Shown here: piece by piece, positions 4,740-21,683 of the stretch
How the letters are laid out: each line of letters opens with the position of its first letter
How positions within the stretch are numbered: position 1 is the stretch's first letter
Source of the DNA: a virus
Strand: one strand, 5' to 3'
Virus record (IMG/VR): IMGVR_UViG_3300046002_003948
Span: 1 to 29,058 of that record
Length of the DNA stretch: 29,058 bases
The notes under the pieces: generated by a model
Database searches by the model: none
Seen by the model: only the letters and a program-made list of their open reading frames with translations
What the model was told of the DNA's origin: nothing
Made by a program: the position numbers and the translations under genes

Positions 4740-5129
4740 TTATTTTATAAGTTGATTTATTAATATGCCGGTGCCTAATGCTGATAGAAATCCTGCGCCA
4801 TACCATAAACCTTTTTTATCATACCATTTTGGTTGTAATAATTTTTCTCTACTTACATATAAATCAATATTTTCTTGCAACAATTTAATTTGATTGTTTT
4901 TATATTGTAATTGTACTGAATCTAATTTAATCAAAGTACTTTGTGTGCGAAATGCTGTATCATATGATTTAATTAAATTGTTATTAATATCATCAGCTGT
5001 CCAAAGTGAATCTAATACAAATGATATATCAGCAAGTTCTTGTTGAGTAAAACATGTATCAGGTAATTGCTTTTTTGTTTGAGTAAATGATATTAGCGGA
5101 AACAATAATATAATTAATAGCTTTTTCAT
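4740..5129 (-). CDS. Small exported protein with C-terminal membrane segment (lysis or envelope role possible)
   Basis: 129 residues. The N-terminus MKKLLIILLFPLISFTQT is a clear signal sequence whose end resembles Bacteroidota signal peptidase I sites. A charged, helical middle (about 30-97) probably forms a coiled coil. A C-terminal hydrophobic stretch, GLWYGAGFLSALGTGILINQ (107-126), looks like a membrane anchor. Signal plus periplasmic coiled coil plus C-terminal anchor resembles a unimolecular spanin, but there is no lipobox: the only early cysteine (C26, in LPDTC) is in the wrong context. Its start overlaps the stop of another small membrane protein by four bases (ATGA), so the two are probably coupled and may work together. 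A spanin or holin-like role in lysis is conjecture. Confidence 0.85.
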   Translation of the reverse strand: MKKLLIILLFPLISFTQTKKQLPDTCFTQQELADISFVLDSLWTADDINNNLIKSYDTAFRTQSTLIKLDSVQLQYKNNQIKLLQENIDLYVSREKLLQPKWYDKKGLWYGAGFLSALGTGILINQLIK

Positions 5130-5464
5130 TTTGTTTGTTTTTTTGCTCGACGCACATTTTTTAAAATATTTTGTTTGGCATCTTCAATTGGAACTTCTTC
5201 AACAATTAAATTGTCTTTAGCTTCTTGCAAATCAGCAATTGCTGCTGTTTGTTCTACTAAATCTTGTTTTGTTTTAATTCTTGTTTCTTCTACTACTTCT
5301 ATTTTGCCTTGCAATTTATCAATTGACGAATCATTATCATCAATTTGTTTTGCAGTTTTTCTTAATTTTTTACTAGTAAGTTTTGATGATGTTACTGCAA
5401 AAATACCTATAATAGCAACTATTGCTCCTACTATAAATGCCCAATATTTTTTAATTGTTTTCAT
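5126..5464 (-). CDS. Small N-terminally anchored coiled-coil protein (i-spanin-like architecture)
   Basis: 112 residues. One membrane segment at about 8-25 (WAFIVGAIVAIIGIFAVT) follows a short basic N-terminus. A long charged region (about 30-100) of heptad-like Lys/Glu/Ile/Leu follows, ending in a basic tail (RRAKKQTK). An inner-membrane anchor plus periplasmic coiled coil is the layout of Rz-type inner-membrane spanins, though many unrelated phage proteins share it. It overlaps the preceding gene by 14 bases and the following one by four, so it is embedded in the head/packaging operon rather than in a separate lysis cassette. No lysozyme or obvious holin is seen next to it. Function inferred from architecture only. 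Confidence 0.82.
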   Translation of the reverse strand: MKTIKKYWAFIVGAIVAIIGIFAVTSSKLTSKKLRKTAKQIDDNDSSIDKLQGKIEVVEETRIKTKQDLVEQTAAIADLQEAKDNLIVEEVPIEDAKQNILKNVRRAKKQTK

Positions 5465-6929: not shown

Positions 6930-9458
6930 TTATCGTGTATATTTCAATACCCCTAGTAGTTGATTAACCGGAGCAAATGCTCCTGTCATTTTATATGTAT
7001 TTCCTTGAAATGTAAATACAACTCCTTCAGTTGGTACAATTGCATCAAAACCGCCTAGTTTTTGTATGCGTCTTAGTTCATGTTCTAATTTTTGTATTGT
7101 AGCAGCATCGCCTTTGGCTTGCAAATCTTTAATAAGTTGAGCTAATTCTGTTTTTATTTCTTGAACCGTTTGGTCTGGATTTGCTGCTAGATAATTGGTT
7201 GCATTTTGTAATACCAAAACTCCTAGACGCAAAAAGATTGATTCAAATGGTTCTAAATTTTGTTTTTTGTATTGTTTGAAATCTTTTTTATCAAACTCAT
7301 CAACCCATGCTAAAAATTCAGGATTTGCAATTTGTTTTTTAAGTATGGATATATTTGTTGATTTATCATTAAATGACCATCGATACATCAATGTATCAAC
7401 CAACTCGTCTGTAATATCATATCCCAATTGTTGGGCTTTTGATTTGATAACATCTCGCCACCATGATTTGTGATATTCGCTGATTAAATCTGTCTCTTTA
7501 AGATTAAATTTTGTTTGTAATTGTGCAATCTCATTAAAGAATGCTGCTTGTTGATCTTCAAAATCATATACTCGACCCAATTTAATACGTTGTGGTGGAA
7601 TAAATGAAAATGTTTTTTGCATATGTGAATTTGCATCTTGAATGATTTTTTGCATGGTTGCCCCGCCGGTTAAATCAGTTTCAATTACTTTTCCTTTTTC
7701 ATCATATTCAACCAAATTATGAAATTGTAAATGAGCTTTATCATATGCAATTACATTTTTAGTTGCTGGATAAATAATTTCCATGTTAGCAAATACTCTG
7801 CCATTTTTAAATATTTGATTCAATGTATTTTCAGCAATTGCATTAAATGCTTCTGTTAAATCTTCAGCGCAGGCCTGATATGCATCTACTACCGGTTGAT
7901 AATTTGCTCCCGCTTCAGCTCCTTTTTCTGCAATTGCTTTTTGTTGTTTGCGTTGGAAATCTGCAATAATTTCAGACGTTGTCATTGGATTAATTATAGT
8001 TCCAGATCCTCGGGCAAATCCAATTTCATTGTTTTTCCAAGTTACAAAAATATTTTGTCCATCAGTCTTTTCAGTTACTGCTTGTTCAATATCTAAACGT
8101 CCTTCTAATGCTCTAGACACAATTTCTTTCATATCATTAAATGATAATCCGTGATCGTCCCATGGATGCGCCATATGTCCCGCCGCGCCACCTTCAGTAA
8201 TAAGTTTAGATTCAGATTGAATTCTATTATTACTTCTAGGCATCACTGATTCAATTTTATAAATTACATCATTAGGATTATTTGGTTGCCATTGTTTACG
8301 TTGTGCTTTAATAGTGCGAGGAATCAATTTAATCTGACCTAACTGACGATCAAACTCTAATTGGAATGGCATATGTAATGGAACATCGAATTGATAATCA
8401 GATTCTACCGCAGTAGGATTGCCAGATTGGAATTGTTGTACAATTTTTTCGCCGTATTCGTCTGATAAGTCTTTGAATAAGTTTTCTAAATCATCTAATC
8501 TAATAGTTCCTTCATTTCTAGGATCATTTAAACGTTCAATAAAGTGAGTAAATTTACCTTGAAAATCTACATCGATACCAAAACGTTTAAAAAATCTATC
8601 AATTACTGGTTCTATTTGTTTTAATTCATCTCGTGTAATATAATTTTCTACAATTATTGATTCTATTAATTTAGCACCAACAACTGTTTTAGCAAAATTA
8701 TCAAAATCATATACAAATGATTCTCCTCGATGTTTTTCTAAGAATGAACGCAAATGATTAATTTTTGATTCATGCCGATCTTTTTCCTTGGGATTCATTA
8801 TTGCTTCAAAAACTTCATCTACTTCTTCTTGCAATGATGAAGTCCACCAATCTTTACTAAATACGGTTGCTTCCTGAACTCCTTTAAGTGTTTGCCATGC
8901 ATTTTTAACTAGTGCATCTTCAAATTGTGGATATGATAAACGAAATGTATCATAATCATTATCTTGAATTGATTGTCGAACAATTGTTGCTGATATTGGT
9001 TCTCCGTTATTATATGTTAATGGATCAACATTAACATTTAATTCAATTGCATCAATACCGCTAGGAATCGTACGGCCTTTTTTATCGCCAATTGTAGCAT
9101 ACTTATCTACATTTGGAACAAAGTCTTTAGCGCGAACATAATCATTGCCTTTAGTTGAAGCTGCCATTGCATACCGTCCCGTTGCATCTTTTGGTAATGC
9201 AAAAAGATATTCATATGCGGCTGTTATTGGAGAATTAAATTCAGTTGCCTGTATTTCAATGTTTGGATCGGAATTTAATAGATTGAATATTTCAATTGTT
9301 TTGCTTCTAGTAATTCCTTCTCGCTCTGTTGGTCCAATCAACAAAATTACTTGGTCAACTGCAGGATCTTCAGCATATCGTTGTGCTAATGCTAAATGTG
9401 CTCCAGTTAATGGTTTGAACCCGCCTGGGAAAAGTATTGTTGTTTTAGTTGTTTGCAT
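6930..9458 (-). CDS. Fused HIGH-type nucleotidyltransferase and KxDG polynucleotide-ligase-like protein
   Basis: 842 residues. The N-terminal domain (about 5-190) is a cytidylyltransferase/NMNAT-type Rossmann fold: PGGFKPLTGAHLAL (11-24) holds the TGAH form of the (T/H)xGH nucleotide-binding motif, and ISATIVR (155-161) is the second signature. The C-terminal half carries covalent nucleotidyltransferase (ligase/capping) motifs in order: motif I EKTDGQNI (463-470) with K464 the likely adenylylated lysine; RVFANMEIIYP (554-564) with E560 as motif III; EGVVF (811-815) as motif IV; YKMTG (822-826) with K823 as motif V. Between them a conserved-looking GGAAGHMAHPWDD (423-435) precedes motif I. Nucleic-acid repair, RNA ligation or cofactor metabolism are possible. 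The substrates of neither half can be read from the sequence. The architecture is confident; the exact activity is not. Confidence 0.85.
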   Translation of the reverse strand: MQTTKTTILFPGGFKPLTGAHLALAQRYAEDPAVDQVILLIGPTEREGITRSKTIEIFNLLNSDPNIEIQATEFNSPITAAYEYLFALPKDATGRYAMAASTKGNDYVRAKDFVPNVDKYATIGDKKGRTIPSGIDAIELNVNVDPLTYNNGEPISATIVRQSIQDNDYDTFRLSYPQFEDALVKNAWQTLKGVQEATVFSKDWWTSSLQEEVDEVFEAIMNPKEKDRHESKINHLRSFLEKHRGESFVYDFDNFAKTVVGAKLIESIIVENYITRDELKQIEPVIDRFFKRFGIDVDFQGKFTHFIERLNDPRNEGTIRLDDLENLFKDLSDEYGEKIVQQFQSGNPTAVESDYQFDVPLHMPFQLEFDRQLGQIKLIPRTIKAQRKQWQPNNPNDVIYKIESVMPRSNNRIQSESKLITEGGAAGHMAHPWDDHGLSFNDMKEIVSRALEGRLDIEQAVTEKTDGQNIFVTWKNNEIGFARGSGTIINPMTTSEIIADFQRKQQKAIAEKGAEAGANYQPVVDAYQACAEDLTEAFNAIAENTLNQIFKNGRVFANMEIIYPATKNVIAYDKAHLQFHNLVEYDEKGKVIETDLTGGATMQKIIQDANSHMQKTFSFIPPQRIKLGRVYDFEDQQAAFFNEIAQLQTKFNLKETDLISEYHKSWWRDVIKSKAQQLGYDITDELVDTLMYRWSFNDKSTNISILKKQIANPEFLAWVDEFDKKDFKQYKKQNLEPFESIFLRLGVLVLQNATNYLAANPDQTVQEIKTELAQLIKDLQAKGDAATIQKLEHELRRIQKLGGFDAIVPTEGVVFTFQGNTYKMTGAFAPVNQLLGVLKYTR

Positions 9459-14377: not shown

Positions 14378-14406
14378 TACACCTTAATATTCTTTTATAT
14401 AAATAT
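14378..14406 (-). promoter_or_regulatory. Repeated promoter-like motif (copy 5) plus strong ribosome-binding site for the long fibre
   Basis: The coding strand reads GATATTTATATAAAAGAATA, with the core at 14397-14406 directly abutting the stop of the preceding recombination gene. AAGGTG (14380-14385) then lies just before the ATG at 14377. The motif core is 20 bases from the start codon. The short junction suggests that fibre expression is reset separately from the upstream DNA-processing genes. Confidence 0.45.
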
Positions 14407-17400
14407 CAATTGTGTTGAATACAGCTAAAATTATTTATTTTGTTAACTTCAATTAAATTATCAACCATATCTCGCATTGTATCTACATGTGATATGATAA
14501 TTGAAAAATCAAACTTAGTGCGAAAATAATCAAACAAATTTACTACTGCTGAGATATGTTCTGCATCTAAACTTCCCCAACCTTCGTCAATTGCAATAAA
14601 ATTAGGACGAGGTAATGCGGAAACATTGATTAATGCAATGCGTATTGCTAATGAGCTAATAAATCGTTCCATTCCACTTGTTAATTCTAGAGGCCAAAAA
14701 TTGTCTTCATCATAAATAATATATCCATTGATATTTTTGCCGTCACTTTGAAGCACCATATTAAAATCAACTACTTGATTCAATACATTGTTAATTTCAG
14801 CTTCAATCTTTGGCATTGCTTTTGCAATTAATTCATACGGGACGCCATCACGTTTAACTGAATCTAAATAATATTCATAAGCTTTATATTCAGTTTCTAA
14901 TTGTTTGTAGGTGTCTAAAGATTCGATTGCTGTTTTCTTTGTAGTTTTAGCAACTTCAATTTTGCCATGTTTACTTCGAATTGTATCTGTAGTTTGTTTT
15001 ATTAATTTTGTTAATGAATCAATTGTTTCTTTGCAAGTTGCAATTTCCGAATCTACCGTTTTATTATGTATAATTGCCGATTCATTAGCACGAAATAATT
15101 CTTGTCGCTCTAAACATGTTTCTAATTCAGATTCACGAGTTTGTAAATCATTTTCTAAAATTTGAATTTGCAATTCTTGTTTTTCTATCGATAACCGATT
15201 TGTTTCATGTAGTTGTTTTAAATTGTTCAATGTCGACAACTCCACACGTACAGCATCATATTCTAATATTGTATTGTTTAAAGTTTTTTGATTAAGTTGT
15301 AATTCGTCTAATATTGATCGATCTGTATCAATCGTATTTTGAGCCGCAATTGCATCTTGTACGAAAACGTTAGATGTACAGTATTTGCATTCCGGATCAT
15401 ATTCATGGTCGGAAAGATGATTAATTTTTTCTTGCTTTGCATTTATAATTCCTTGTTGTTTTTTAACAGTTAACTCAATTTGTTCTAATTCAGTTTCAAA
15501 TTTTTCTAGTGATCTTAATTCTGTAACTAGTTTATTTTCATTAAATGCTCGTATATCTCGTTTGATTATTAAATATTTACTAACAACCGTTTCTAAATTT
15601 ATTTCTGCTAATTCAATGTCTGTTTGTAATTGTGTAACTTTTTTTGTAAGTGTTGTTTCTACTTGTATTAAATCATCAATGTCTGGACCGTTATATGTTG
15701 TTGGCTGTTTTGTCTCAATAAGTTGCAACATTTTAGTTTGTAGATCATTTCTAGATTCTTGATATACATCTTCCTTTTTTTCTAGGTTAGTAATATCTTG
15801 TTGATTATTTGTAATAATAGTATCAGCATCATTGATAATGATATCGAAATCTGTTTTTTTATATGTTTTTAATTTTCCGGCAGTTTCTTTAATTTCGTCA
15901 GCTGCAAGTTGATATAGTTGTTCAAATACTGTAATATCTAAAAACTGTGAAAGCAAATCTTTGCGTTCTTTTTGAGACTTTTCAATAAAATTATTATTAT
16001 CAGCTTGAAGTGAAAATGCAGTTAAAATAAAATCATCATATGTGCCTAAATAACGACGAATTGATTTGTTTGTATCACTTCGTTCTTCACCATTTAAATT
16101 TTCAGTGTCAGTATAAAAATCTACATCTACCTTAACATGTTTTTCTTTTTTCTTGGTGCCGCGCCTTTCAATTGTATATTGAATGCCATTCATTTCAAAT
16201 TTAAAAATGCCATTAAATGTAGTTTTTTTGTTGTTCAAAACTTCATTTGCTTTACCTGTTTTACTACATTTATCAAATATAGTATATGTAATTGCATCTA
16301 ATAGTGATGATTTACCTGAGGTATTTGCCGCAAATAAACCACATACATCTGATAACTTTTCAAAATTAATAACATTGCCTTCGCCATATGAAAACATGTT
16401 ATCGAATTCAAATGATATAGGATGCCATGTTGTATGTCGTATTGATTCTACTGCTGGTAATTTTGAATTAATTGTTCGATTAATATATCTAATTGCATCA
16501 GTTTCTTCAGCAGTTGCTTGTGGATGATTAATTGAAATATAATCAGTAATTAACGTGTTTTGATATTCTACATCTCGTACATTGCCAATTGTAAATGATG
16601 CTGTTGCATTAGAATCTGGTCCTGATGTACTACGTTGTATTGTAATGTCCTGAACATCATATTTTTTACGAATTGTTGCAATCAACCGTTTCATGTCAGC
16701 TGCACTAGTTTCATGAAATTTTATTCTGACTCTAGGTTTGTTTGGCATTCGATGTGGAGACTTGACAATTGTAGTCCCATCAACTTCTATTGTAACATAA
16801 CCATAATCATTTTGAATTTCAACAAACTTAGCACTTTTAGATTCAATATCCCAAACTAAAATTCCATGGTCTAATGCTTCGCCATGATTTTGTTGAATCA
16901 ATGAACCTGGATAAGCAATTGTTTGGGCAGCATCTAAAAATTGTGCAGGTTTATGAATATCTCCTAACAATGTTAAATCATGTCCTGCAAATAATTCTGT
17001 AGTTACATGTTCGTTTGATATTTGGTATCCTATATCAGTCTTAGCAGTATTTACAGCACCATGGTGCATTGCAATTTTATAAGATGCAGTAAAATCTTTT
17101 GCCATAATGTATTCAGTTGGTGCAACATCAACCGCCATATGGTTCCATGTAATTCCGCCGCATTCAAACAATCCGTTATCTTTAATAAAGATGATATTTT
17201 TATTATTGATAACATCTAGAATAGGACTAACAGCATCAATTCTCTGCATATTATTCAAATTCATGTCATGGTTTCCTAGAATAACAATTGTAGGTATTGT
17301 AAATCCATTAAAAAATTCTACTAGCATCTGAATTAGCTCCGGAGACATATCTAATTTGCTGTGCACAATATCTCCAGTAACAACTGCAATACTATTTTTA

Positions 17401-17546
17401 GTTGAATGACAATTAATATGGTCAAACATGTTTTGAAATACTTCGCGATATTCTTTATGTCGTTTTAATGTTCGGATATGAATATCTGATACGTGAAAAA
17501 TTTTATCAATCTTATCAATACCAATATCAATCTTTTTTATGCCCAT
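14406..17546 (-). CDS. Fused Mre11-Rad50 (SbcD-SbcC; T4 gp47-gp46) recombination nuclease-ATPase
   Basis: 1046 residues combining two proteins that are separate in T4 and bacteria. The N-terminal part (about 1-345) is an Mre11/SbcD calcineurin-like nuclease: SDIHIR (20-25), TGDIVH (57-62), GNHD (91-94), MHHGA (160-164) and GDIHK (195-199), the metal-binding set in order. The rest is SbcC/Rad50-like: Walker A FAANTSGKSS (405-414), where an alanine replaces the usual first glycine; long coiled coils (about 550-700 and 735-895) flanking a zinc hook CKYC (C720, C723); the ABC signature LTSGMERF (955-962); Walker B FIAIDEGWGSLD (983-994); and H1020. The complex resects DNA ends for recombination-dependent replication. 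It overlaps the primase gene by 10 bases. Confidence 0.93.
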   Translation of the reverse strand: MGIKKIDIGIDKIDKIFHVSDIHIRTLKRHKEYREVFQNMFDHINCHSTKNSIAVVTGDIVHSKLDMSPELIQMLVEFFNGFTIPTIVILGNHDMNLNNMQRIDAVSPILDVINNKNIIFIKDNGLFECGGITWNHMAVDVAPTEYIMAKDFTASYKIAMHHGAVNTAKTDIGYQISNEHVTTELFAGHDLTLLGDIHKPAQFLDAAQTIAYPGSLIQQNHGEALDHGILVWDIESKSAKFVEIQNDYGYVTIEVDGTTIVKSPHRMPNKPRVRIKFHETSAADMKRLIATIRKKYDVQDITIQRSTSGPDSNATASFTIGNVRDVEYQNTLITDYISINHPQATAEETDAIRYINRTINSKLPAVESIRHTTWHPISFEFDNMFSYGEGNVINFEKLSDVCGLFAANTSGKSSLLDAITYTIFDKCSKTGKANEVLNNKKTTFNGIFKFEMNGIQYTIERRGTKKKEKHVKVDVDFYTDTENLNGEERSDTNKSIRRYLGTYDDFILTAFSLQADNNNFIEKSQKERKDLLSQFLDITVFEQLYQLAADEIKETAGKLKTYKKTDFDIIINDADTIITNNQQDITNLEKKEDVYQESRNDLQTKMLQLIETKQPTTYNGPDIDDLIQVETTLTKKVTQLQTDIELAEINLETVVSKYLIIKRDIRAFNENKLVTELRSLEKFETELEQIELTVKKQQGIINAKQEKINHLSDHEYDPECKYCTSNVFVQDAIAAQNTIDTDRSILDELQLNQKTLNNTILEYDAVRVELSTLNNLKQLHETNRLSIEKQELQIQILENDLQTRESELETCLERQELFRANESAIIHNKTVDSEIATCKETIDSLTKLIKQTTDTIRSKHGKIEVAKTTKKTAIESLDTYKQLETEYKAYEYYLDSVKRDGVPYELIAKAMPKIEAEINNVLNQVVDFNMVLQSDGKNINGYIIYDEDNFWPLELTSGMERFISSLAIRIALINVSALPRPNFIAIDEGWGSLDAEHISAVVNLFDYFRTKFDFSIIISHVDTMRDMVDNLIEVNKINNFSCIQHN

Positions 17547-19919: not shown

Positions 19920-21116
19920 TTATAATTTTAATTTGTTAACAAACTCGGCGTCTACAACTTTATCTGATGTAGTCATTTTAAACCCATCCTTTAAAAACTT
20001 AACCATTTTTTGTGTACCATCGCCATAATTTCCATGATTTGCTTGAGTTGCTAACGCTTTTTTCAATGTTGTATAAGTTTTATAATGTGGAGAAGCTTTT
20101 AATGCTTTTTCAGCTTTTGGTATTTTTAATAAGTTTTCAAAATATTCTATCATCAACTGTTGTACTCGGTAAAATTCAACATCGCCTTTAATTCCGTACG
20201 TAAATCCACCTTCCGGAACTTTTATATTAGTAACTACATCAATTACTTGTCGATTTGCTATTTGACATTGTCCAACAAATTGTTTAACACCGAATTGATC
20301 CTTAAATACATATATGTTTTTCTTTAAACTAGTTGCAAATTTCATGGTAGCATTATCATAATCTCCTGTAACAGTAAGACCATTTTCAGTTTGAAATTGT
20401 TGAATTGCTCCTTTTAATTCACATCCAAATTTATTTTGTACTGTATAGTTAAATAATGATGATTCTAAATTAAAATATGCATATAATTCTCGTACGACAC
20501 GACTTTCATCGCCATATGATACAGTAACATATGGAGCATTTGCTAACGTTACTGGTTCTATATTAATTTCGCGTGTCCATTCATTAAAATTAACATCTTC
20601 TAAATTAAATACTAGTGCGCCCCCAGATAACTTATTAATATATCCTTCCATGGTGTTTATTAATGTTTTTGGAATTAATGATGTTTTAACATATGTTGCA
20701 ACTGAATAATAATTTGCAATTATACGATCCGATTTAGGATTCCGGGCATCTCGCTTTGCATCAGTTTTTAAATCTCCAGTAATTATCCAAACATAATCTG
20801 GCCCTGTCATTGGTAAATAACCACCTCGAAGTCCATTTAATTTTAATACTACATTTGTTTGAAATTCAATTGGCGTTATTTCCCTGCTACGTTTTCCTGT
20901 TACGTCATCTTTATCACGTAAGCCAACACGTTTCAACGTAATCCGCGTTCCTCCTAAGTTATAGAAATTCATATCTTTTGACGCAATTCCTAACGGCGTT
21001 CGAATTTGCGAATTAATAAAAGTTAAATCCTCAGCTTGTAATGGTTCTATCCCTAAAACCATACTATCCTCTGTTAATATATTACGAATTATTTGTTCTA
21101 ATAATTTACTCATCAT
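19920..21116 (-). CDS. Virion protein candidate with peptidoglycan-binding-like segments
   Basis: 398 residues (or 397: the second ATG at 21113 is better spaced from the upstream GGA). The N-terminus MMSKLLEQIIRNILTED is a short amphipathic tag. A segment at about 232-265 (LKGAIQQFQTENGLTVTGDY then DNATMKF) matches the common peptidoglycan-binding repeat of the PG_binding_1 type (helix, FQxxxGLxVTGxxDxxT). A second, weaker match is at about 364-398 (YGDGTQKMVKFLKDGF). The region before 230 is beta-rich, without a recognisable enzyme; no lysozyme, amidase or peptidase motif was found. It could be a structural cell-wall-contacting tail component or an injected protein. The gene is preceded by a strong promoter-like motif. 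Confidence 0.82.
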   Translation of the reverse strand: MMSKLLEQIIRNILTEDSMVLGIEPLQAEDLTFINSQIRTPLGIASKDMNFYNLGGTRITLKRVGLRDKDDVTGKRSREITPIEFQTNVVLKLNGLRGGYLPMTGPDYVWIITGDLKTDAKRDARNPKSDRIIANYYSVATYVKTSLIPKTLINTMEGYINKLSGGALVFNLEDVNFNEWTREINIEPVTLANAPYVTVSYGDESRVVRELYAYFNLESSLFNYTVQNKFGCELKGAIQQFQTENGLTVTGDYDNATMKFATSLKKNIYVFKDQFGVKQFVGQCQIANRQVIDVVTNIKVPEGGFTYGIKGDVEFYRVQQLMIEYFENLLKIPKAEKALKASPHYKTYTTLKKALATQANHGNYGDGTQKMVKFLKDGFKMTTSDKVVDAEFVNKLKL

Positions 21117-21140: not shown

Positions 21141-21683
21141 TCACCAATCAACCATTACCATGTTACCATCCCATAACATGATATTGCTGGAATTAAAATC
21201 TAAATCTAAATCTAAATCTTCAATTCCGGTTTTGTTAATGTCTTGTTGCAAAGCCCGTAAAAAATTAACTAGTTTTTGATTAACATTTCTTGCTCCATCA
21301 TTATCTAGAAATTCAAAAATAGTAACTTCTCCGCCTTCTGCACGTGCATATTGAGCAAATTTGTTCATGAATTTATCAATCATTATTTTATCCGCCTGTG
21401 GCAACGATTCCGCGTTTGCCATTATGTACATATGTTGTTTTTTATCAACATAATAAATTGGAATAAACGTTGTAAATTCAGACCACCTACCTACTATTAC
21501 CGTAGCAACGTCAAACTCATCTCGTTCTTGTGTAATTTTAAAACAACGATCTTCGCCATCTATTTCATAAACACGACCGTTATCTCCAGCACCAATAAAT
21601 CTAAATTGCTTATTTTTAATTTTATCTAATAAACGCTTTAAATCTGTATCTACTATTTCCAATAATGATTTTAATCGTATCAT
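21141..21683 (-). CDS. Compact protein-kinase-fold protein ending at the DFG-equivalent, N-terminal LLE tag
   Basis: 180 residues. The order of kinase signatures is visible: a glycine-rich loop, FIGAGDNGRVYEI (29-41); a beta-3 lysine, CFKIT (K49); a hinge-like YIMANAESL (86-94); a catalytic-loop equivalent with D162 and N167 (DFNSSNIML, the D-x4-N spacing of HRD...N); and D179 in VMVDW, 12 residues after N167, where DFG (or the DW of aminoglycoside-phosphotransferase-like kinases) would stand. The protein stops at W180, so the activation segment and later C-lobe helices are absent. It starts MIRLKSLLEIVDTD. The start is fixed by AAAGGA overlapping the previous gene's last codons. An active kinase, a pseudokinase, or a binding module are all possible. 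The fold assignment is by motif only. Confidence 0.8.
   Translation of the reverse strand: MIRLKSLLEIVDTDLKRLLDKIKNKQFRFIGAGDNGRVYEIDGEDRCFKITQERDEFDVATVIVGRWSEFTTFIPIYYVDKKQHMYIMANAESLPQADKIMIDKFMNKFAQYARAEGGEVTIFEFLDNDGARNVNQKLVNFLRALQQDINKTGIEDLDLDLDFNSSNIMLWDGNMVMVDW

Follow-up and report, generated by a model that had tools for sequence, protein, structure and literature searches.

A candidate head-packaged polyprotein of T4-type phages joins a HIGH-superfamily nucleotidyltransferase to a ligase-like domain

Introduction

Head-packaged enzymes and polyvalent multidomain proteins have both been described already (PMC5512222, PMC9503650). The internal proteins and Alt of phage T4 carry a capsid-targeting sequence that is cut by gp21 (PMC9026906, PMC3012670). 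Polyvalent proteins combine several catalytic domains per chain with exchangeable modules in a terminase–portal context, and are predicted to be packaged in the head and injected (PMC5512222). Single HIGH nucleotidyltransferases with a capsid-targeting-like N-terminus are found as gp154 of S-CREM2, a cytidylyltransferase (PMC10665884), and gp184 of Syn9. Phage NadM/NadR-type NMN adenylyltransferases, which are HIGH nucleotidyltransferases as well, have a fused Nudix or kinase partner (PMC9503650). On the ligase side, the comparison is with T4 RNA ligase 1 (Rnl1; gp63, RnlA; PF09511).

Here we describe P0001, an 842-residue protein encoded in a virus record of 29,058 bases, the whole of which was analysed and is called the window below. 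P0001 shares with the T4 internal proteins and Alt an [IL]xE/G or A site (the slash marks the cut here and below), a gp21-family protease in related genomes and, in its stand-alone relatives, a start resembling MKxFxxFLxE; it differs from them in that the candidate cut site lies inside a multi-enzyme chain, the N-terminus lacks a targeting-like peptide and packaging is predicted. Its several catalytic domains, exchangeable modules, terminase–portal context and proposed packaging and injection recall the polyvalent proteins, whereas the processing of those is ascribed to built-in zincin-like peptidases and P0001 carries prohead-protease-type sites; in the consulted parts of PMC5512222, no HIGH nucleotidyltransferase is found paired with an RNA-ligase-like domain. 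S-CREM2 gp154 and Syn9 gp184 lack a fused ligase and are distantly related to the front domain only, and in the NadM/NadR-type enzymes the place of the ligase is taken by Nudix or kinase. With T4 Rnl1, motifs I, Ia and III can be aligned, and the EG of motif IV and the lysine of motif V are present, but the P0001 domain has no Pfam match, a helical insert between motifs III and IV, KxTG in place of KxK and a fused HIGH nucleotidyltransferase, and its chain stops 19 residues past K823, so that the C-terminal helical domain of Rnl1 is missing. Within the literature searched, the following appear to be new: a ligase-like family that Pfam does not cover, the joining of this family to a HIGH nucleotidyltransferase, the exchangeable slot, and prohead-protease-type sites between enzymes. 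On balance, we lean towards reading P0001 as a modular head-packaged polyprotein that would be cut in the prohead and deliver nucleotide or RNA repair enzymes.

Results

P0001 is encoded by a single intact ORF on the minus strand of the window (9458–6930), with an ATG start and without an internal stop; the plus strand of 6930–9458 has many stops. A T4-type portal (PF07230, 7.8e-66) and a terminase lie near the gene, and the virus is a T4-type virus of bacteria. The chain is laid out as three domains: a HIGH-superfamily nucleotidyltransferase (residues 1–190), a middle domain (270–401) and a ligase-like domain (423–842). The first-pass annotation had placed a HIGH-type nucleotidyltransferase and a KxDG ligase-like domain on one chain, and both this arrangement and all the motifs and residue numbers that it quoted (PGGFKPLTGAH 11–21, ISATIVR 155–161, K464, E560, E811, K823) proved correct; it had overlooked the separate middle domain, as well as the short [IL]xE sites that are conserved at the borders between domains. 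Since these residues are invariant or nearly so in relatives and purifying selection acts on all the domains (dN/dS roughly 0.06–0.21 against L002, L004 and L007), the motifs are not there by chance. The features of the locus are as follows, with the basis of each in brackets:

8889–9458, minus strand: HIGH-superfamily nucleotidyltransferase domain, residues 1–190 (PF01467 in relatives, PPAT/NMNAT profile matches, motifs)
9396–9428, minus strand: HIGH-type motif PGGFKPLTGAH, residues 11–21 (motif conservation)
8976–8996, minus strand: ISATIVR motif, residues 155–161 (motif conservation)
8652–8888, minus strand: linker 1, residues 191–269, variable, a cassette insertion slot in relatives (comparison with relatives)
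8643–8669, minus strand: LIES and IVEN, candidate [ILV]xE prohead-protease sites before the middle domain, residues 264–272
8256–8651, minus strand: middle domain, residues 270–401, a facultative cassette (phrog_14518/phrog_23027)
8187–8204, minus strand: LITE/GG, candidate prohead-protease cleavage site, residues 419–424 (conservation)
6933–8192, minus strand: ligase-like domain, residues 423–842 (AF2, Foldseek against PDB and BFVD, hhalign to Rnl1)
8052–8072, minus strand: motif I EKTDGQN with the predicted nucleotidyl-lysine K464 (conservation, hhalign)
7767–7787, minus strand: motif III NMEIIYP with E560, aligned with T4 Rnl1 E159 (hhalign)
7041–7562, minus strand: helical insert between motifs III and IV, about residues 633–806 (AF2 secondary structure)
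7014–7028, minus strand: motif IV EGVVF with E811 (conservation)
6981–6995, minus strand: motif V YKMTG with K823 and the invariant T825 where Rnl1 has a second lysine (conservation)

The assignment of the front half to the HIGH superfamily, made in the first-pass annotation, is borne out by profile matches of the family. The P0001 sequence alone scores 13.3 bits against PF01467, under the cut-off of 21; all six aligned family members match it (best 1.6e-9), and L143 and L266 score above the cut-off. Against solved structures, a profile of six relatives retrieves phosphopantetheine adenylyltransferase (PPAT, 2.6e-6) and the archaeal NMNAT MJ0541 (1.6e-3). All 93 relatives keep the last histidine of the HIGH motif, and 91 of them keep ISxTxxR. 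ISxTxxR is a motif of the NadM/NadR-type NMN adenylyltransferase family and is common to the front domain of P0001, for which an NMNAT-type nucleotidyltransferase is a possible assignment, with odds below even. Six contigs related to that of P0001 differ from the setting of the NadM/NadR-type phage enzymes in that they yielded no match to the phosphoribosyltransferase NadV (PF04095); a phage-encoded NAD salvage pair is therefore not apparent there, and the case for a complete pathway is weakened. A scan of the genome contigs for cellular origin, run with the nucleotidyltransferase profile only, returned only two weak archaeal matches.

The back domain very probably belongs to the nucleotidyl-lysine ligase superfamily, as the first-pass annotation had proposed, given its profile alignment, invariant motifs and predicted fold. 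Across 58 ligase-domain sequences with 38–86% identity to P0001, K464, D466, G467, E560, E811, G812, K823 and T825 are invariant; motif V has the unusual form KxTG in place of the two-lysine form KxK. The domain has no match in Pfam, including PF09511, the T4 Rnl1 family. Its AF2 model, for which three rows from annotated records were left out of the input, has a pLDDT of 85.9 and a pTM of 0.82. All of Foldseek matches 1–21 in the PDB are to RNA ligases or DNA ligase-like enzymes, and the top matches in the PDB and BFVD are RNA ligases in particular; the best PDB match has E 2.6e-3 and a probability of 0.96 with a TM of only about 0.2, which may reflect the helical insert, about 175 residues long, that separates motif III from motif IV. 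This insert, likewise foreseen in the first-pass annotation, is present in the model. When aligned by hhalign with 17 T4 Rnl1 sequences (E 0.0025), the domain places EKTDGQN on KxDG and NMEIIYP on motif III, in a register that spans motifs I, Ia and III and pairs K464 with K99 and E560 with E159. A six-sequence profile scores 32.1 against a maximum of 22.3 for column-shuffled profiles, a score that none of 60 shuffles reaches, whereas the 28.1 of a 61-sequence profile is reached by two of 60; for this reason the evidence from sequence for membership of the superfamily is moderate.

With KxTG instead of KxK at motif V and little sequence beyond it, the domain is not placed in the Rnl1 family itself. 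An ordinary Rnl1 is encoded as well in two relatives, so the ligase-like domain need not be the tRNA-repair ligase and, if it is a packaged ligase, is not simply a replacement. We give RNA an even chance of being the substrate. It is possible, if rather doubtful, that the domain has diverged within the superfamily into a nucleotidyltransferase that joins no RNA and may instead act in RNA capping, protein AMPylation or DNA-end modification, with KxTG marking the change, a reading that would be compatible with packaging. The missing Pfam family, the invariant threonine in place of the second lysine of motif V, the lack of any domain beyond that motif, the large helical insert and PDB fold matches no better than E 2.6e-3 all fit such divergence, whereas the best fold matches are specifically to RNA ligases, the hhalign register takes in Rnl1 motifs I, Ia and III, and a kinase-fused relative fits end healing followed by sealing.

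DUF6267 (PF19782), a KxDG protein that adjoins a nucleotidyltransferase in cyanophages and pelagiphages, was considered as a homologue of the ligase-like domain and set aside, though kept as a lead: the order of motifs is similar, but the hhalign comparison with 69 DUF6267 sequences scored no higher than shuffled profiles. In Pelagibacter phage HTVC008M (L310, 1598–5791) and Syn9 (L309, 1797–3909), a DUF6267-like protein with KxDG and EG motifs and a nucleotidyltransferase are encoded by separate genes that are adjacent or nearly so, with a P-loop kinase-like protein in HTVC008M only.

At least 135 close relatives of P0001 are present in IMG/VR, 80 of which were kept. The ligase-domain profile marks at least 579 loci there (579 of the 599 pattern matches listed were confirmed), and the middle domain was confirmed in 524 of 600 pattern matches; both families are abundant, the ligase-like family in aquatic viruses. 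The fusion in P0001 is not a quirk, because 86 distinct complete ORFs of related phages carry both the nucleotidyltransferase and the ligase. Among cultured phages, Microcystis phage Mel-JY01 has the fusion (protein WWT39297.1). The commonest architecture is nucleotidyltransferase–middle–ligase (46 distinct complete ORFs), followed by nucleotidyltransferase–ligase (23) and nucleotidyltransferase–'DDGP' region–ligase (11); the middle domain alone (9), the ligase alone (5) and nucleotidyltransferase–middle (4) occur as well. The slot between the two enzymes may thus be empty or hold the middle domain, an HNH, HAD-like or SGNH-like segment, or other contents, and in relatives of 683 aa the middle domain is cleanly missing. 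Single or few ORFs contain HNH, HAD-like, SGNH-like, ART-like, Zn-peptidase-like or P-loop kinase segments; all but the last of these labels come from reading motifs and are leads only, and the P-loop kinase segment of L143 matches Zeta_toxin and AAA_33 above the Pfam cut-offs. In L063 the nucleotidyltransferase and the ligase are two separate ORFs.

In L066 (5995–9192) and L058 (5989–9276), the linker that precedes the ligase domain contains an in-frame insertion of an HNH-endonuclease-like segment. A reading of the L066 insert as part of a group I intron was dropped, as the Rfam search found none and the insert reads through in frame.

The middle domain, which is also found alone or in other fusions, matches two PHROGs without assigned function, phrog_14518 and phrog_23027. 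Its AF2 model has a pLDDT of 68, and Foldseek with this model gave no significant fold match. The conserved His and Arg and the order of helices and strands had prompted comparison with RelE-like RNases; this was not upheld, with Pfam matches at chance level only (RegB 0.033, in one of 43 members), an empty PDB profile search and nothing significant from Foldseek. In Sinorhizobium phage phiM12 (L083, 6639–8447), the middle domain forms the C-terminus of a protein of about 600 aa, the N-terminal half of which is nucleotidyltransferase-like and has lost the HIGH motif.

The linkers of P0001 and its relatives are hypervariable except for [IL]xE/GG directly before the ligase domain, which is the T4 prohead-protease consensus. 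At this site, P3 is Ile or Leu in 61 of 61 sequences, P1 is Glu in 57 and P1' is Gly in 60; over 88 distinct contexts the counts are 84 for P1 Glu and 87 for P3 Ile or Leu. P1 and P3 have entropies of 0.31 and 1.04 bits; P2 varies, and values from P5 outwards are 2.7–3.7 bits. The LITE/GG stretch is predicted to be disordered (model residues 1–21, pLDDT below 50). Of the 54 distinct contexts at the N-terminal border of the middle domain, 49 show a loose [ILV]xE pattern, including one match that lies off the site in a truncated frame. The linkers contain 176 instances of [IL]xE[GAN] against a shuffled mean of 21.7 (maximum 36 in 500 shuffles of each linker), counts that are not independent events since the sequences are related; site density is 2.0 per 100 aa in linker 1 and 0–0.19 inside folded domains. 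As controls, the T4 sites gp23 LTE65/A and gp24 LRE10/S fit the [IL]xE rule, the propeptide of gp23 being 65 residues long (PMC5694885). A gp21-type protease (PF03420) and gp23 (PF07068) are encoded in 12 of 13 related contigs, the gp23 of which has a QLVKE/A-like junction; the window ends before that region.

These patterns bear on a second alternative, in which P0001 is an ordinary intracellular bifunctional enzyme whose domains stay joined and cooperate inside the infected cell, for example with NAD made by the nucleotidyltransferase being used by, or regulating, the ligase, and in which [IL]xEGG is the N-terminal arm of the ligase. The EGG conservation could indeed serve the ligase itself: conservation runs on beyond the site (GGAAGHMAHPWDD), both enzymes share one chain in all 86 of the fused ORFs, and P0001 has no N-terminal targeting-like peptide. 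We nevertheless consider this alternative unlikely, as the site lies in a segment predicted to be disordered, P1 Glu and P3 Ile or Leu fit the protease rule while P2 and the positions from P5 outwards vary, a similar site precedes the unrelated middle domain, and the two parts are separate ORFs in L063, with stand-alone ligases occurring elsewhere. The proposal in the first-pass annotation that the front half might supply or recycle a nucleotide for the back half is not supported, since the [IL]xE/GG site between them suggests proteolytic separation and the ligase and nucleotidyltransferase are found apart in other phages. A head or neck structural or assembly factor that keeps enzyme folds for binding rather than catalysis, for which one might cite the position of the gene near terminase and portal, the additional annotation of T4 Rnl1 as a tail-fibre attachment factor and the fusion of the middle domain in phiM12 to a nucleotidyltransferase-like half without an intact motif, is highly improbable given how little, if at all, the catalytic residues of the two enzymes vary across 58–93 relatives.

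Discussion

Returning to the head-packaged polyprotein, we consider that P0001 is probably packaged in the head and cleaved, judging from its linker sites and from the N-termini of its relatives. Capsid-targeting N-termini of T4 are cut by gp21 (PMC9026906). Similar N-termini are found on stand-alone relatives of each module, namely on ligases (MKFLKSYEEFLNE.. and MAKILTYTEFLTE..), on a middle domain (MKSFKEYISE/G) and on a nucleotidyltransferase (MKTYTEYLEE/A). P0001 itself starts MQTTKTTILFPGG and lacks such a peptide, so its targeting, if it is packaged, would reside elsewhere, for example in a linker or in binding to the core. The nucleotidyltransferase gp154 of Synechococcus phage S-CREM2 starts MKNFSSFLTE/A and was detected by mass spectrometry in CsCl-purified virions (PMC10665884). 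This virion support applies to a distant homologue of the N-terminal domain, not to the fused protein. We know of no virion peptide from any ligase-fused member.

We propose the following model, in which packaging, cleavage, injection and both enzyme activities are inferred. P0001 would be made alongside the head genes and taken into the prohead, where a gp21-like prohead protease would cut it at the [IL]xE/G sites between modules, freeing the HIGH-superfamily nucleotidyltransferase, the middle module and the ligase of the nucleotidyl-lysine superfamily. Carried in the virion, the freed modules would then be brought into the host together with the DNA. Early in infection, the ligase, acting through a lysyl-AMP at K464, might seal broken RNA such as tRNA cleaved by host defences, and the nucleotidyltransferase might rebuild a dinucleotide-type cofactor (NAD, if it is NMNAT-like) or otherwise act on nucleotides. 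The P-loop kinase of the Zeta-toxin/AAA_33 type that is added in one relative fits such a repair kit, and the four tRNA genes of one related 169-kb contig make tRNA repair at least plausible there.

More speculatively, there might be a widespread class of T4-type phages that carry a pre-made repair kit in the head, encoded as a polyprotein with an exchangeable cargo slot, so that the same prohead protease that matures the capsid would also cut the kit into separate enzymes whose action on RNA or nucleotides of the host would begin in the first minute of infection. Besides the nucleotidyltransferase and the new-family ligase, such a kit would include exchangeable modules, a kinase or phosphatase for example. 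If this is true, phages can deliver an RNA- or nucleotide-repair ligase ready-made with their DNA, without the need to express it, and [IL]xE/G or A between folded modules becomes a search rule for head-packaged effectors in thousands of uncultured T4-type phages. The analysis also adds a ligase-like family outside all Pfam models and a similarly abundant middle-domain family.

Several other proteins of the window and of a related contig deserve mention in their own right. A 1046-aa ORF (14406–17546, minus strand) matches SbcD-like (phrog_100) and SbcC-like (phrog_77) families and is a fusion of the counterparts of T4 gp47 and gp46. Two small overlapping ORFs precede the terminase (4740–5464, minus strand), one with weak Rz-spanin-like matches and the other with a signal-peptide-like start. 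A 180-aa protein (21141–21683, minus strand) without a PHROG match at 1e-3 has a protein-kinase-like look, a leader-like start (MIRLKSLLEI) and the ending DFNSSNIMLWDGNMVMVDW; an APH/ChoK-like kinase is present in S-CREM2 virions (PMC10665884). A 398-aa protein (19920–21116, minus strand) with a weak endolysin match (phrog_2649) has a targeting-peptide-like N-terminus, MMSKLLEQIIRNILTEDS, with an LTE/D site. On the related 169-kb contig (L184–L192), several proteins at 16014–17364 and 85268–88870 start like MKKLENILAENMRRFGTKNL, a repeated N-terminal tag that is perhaps a targeting peptide.
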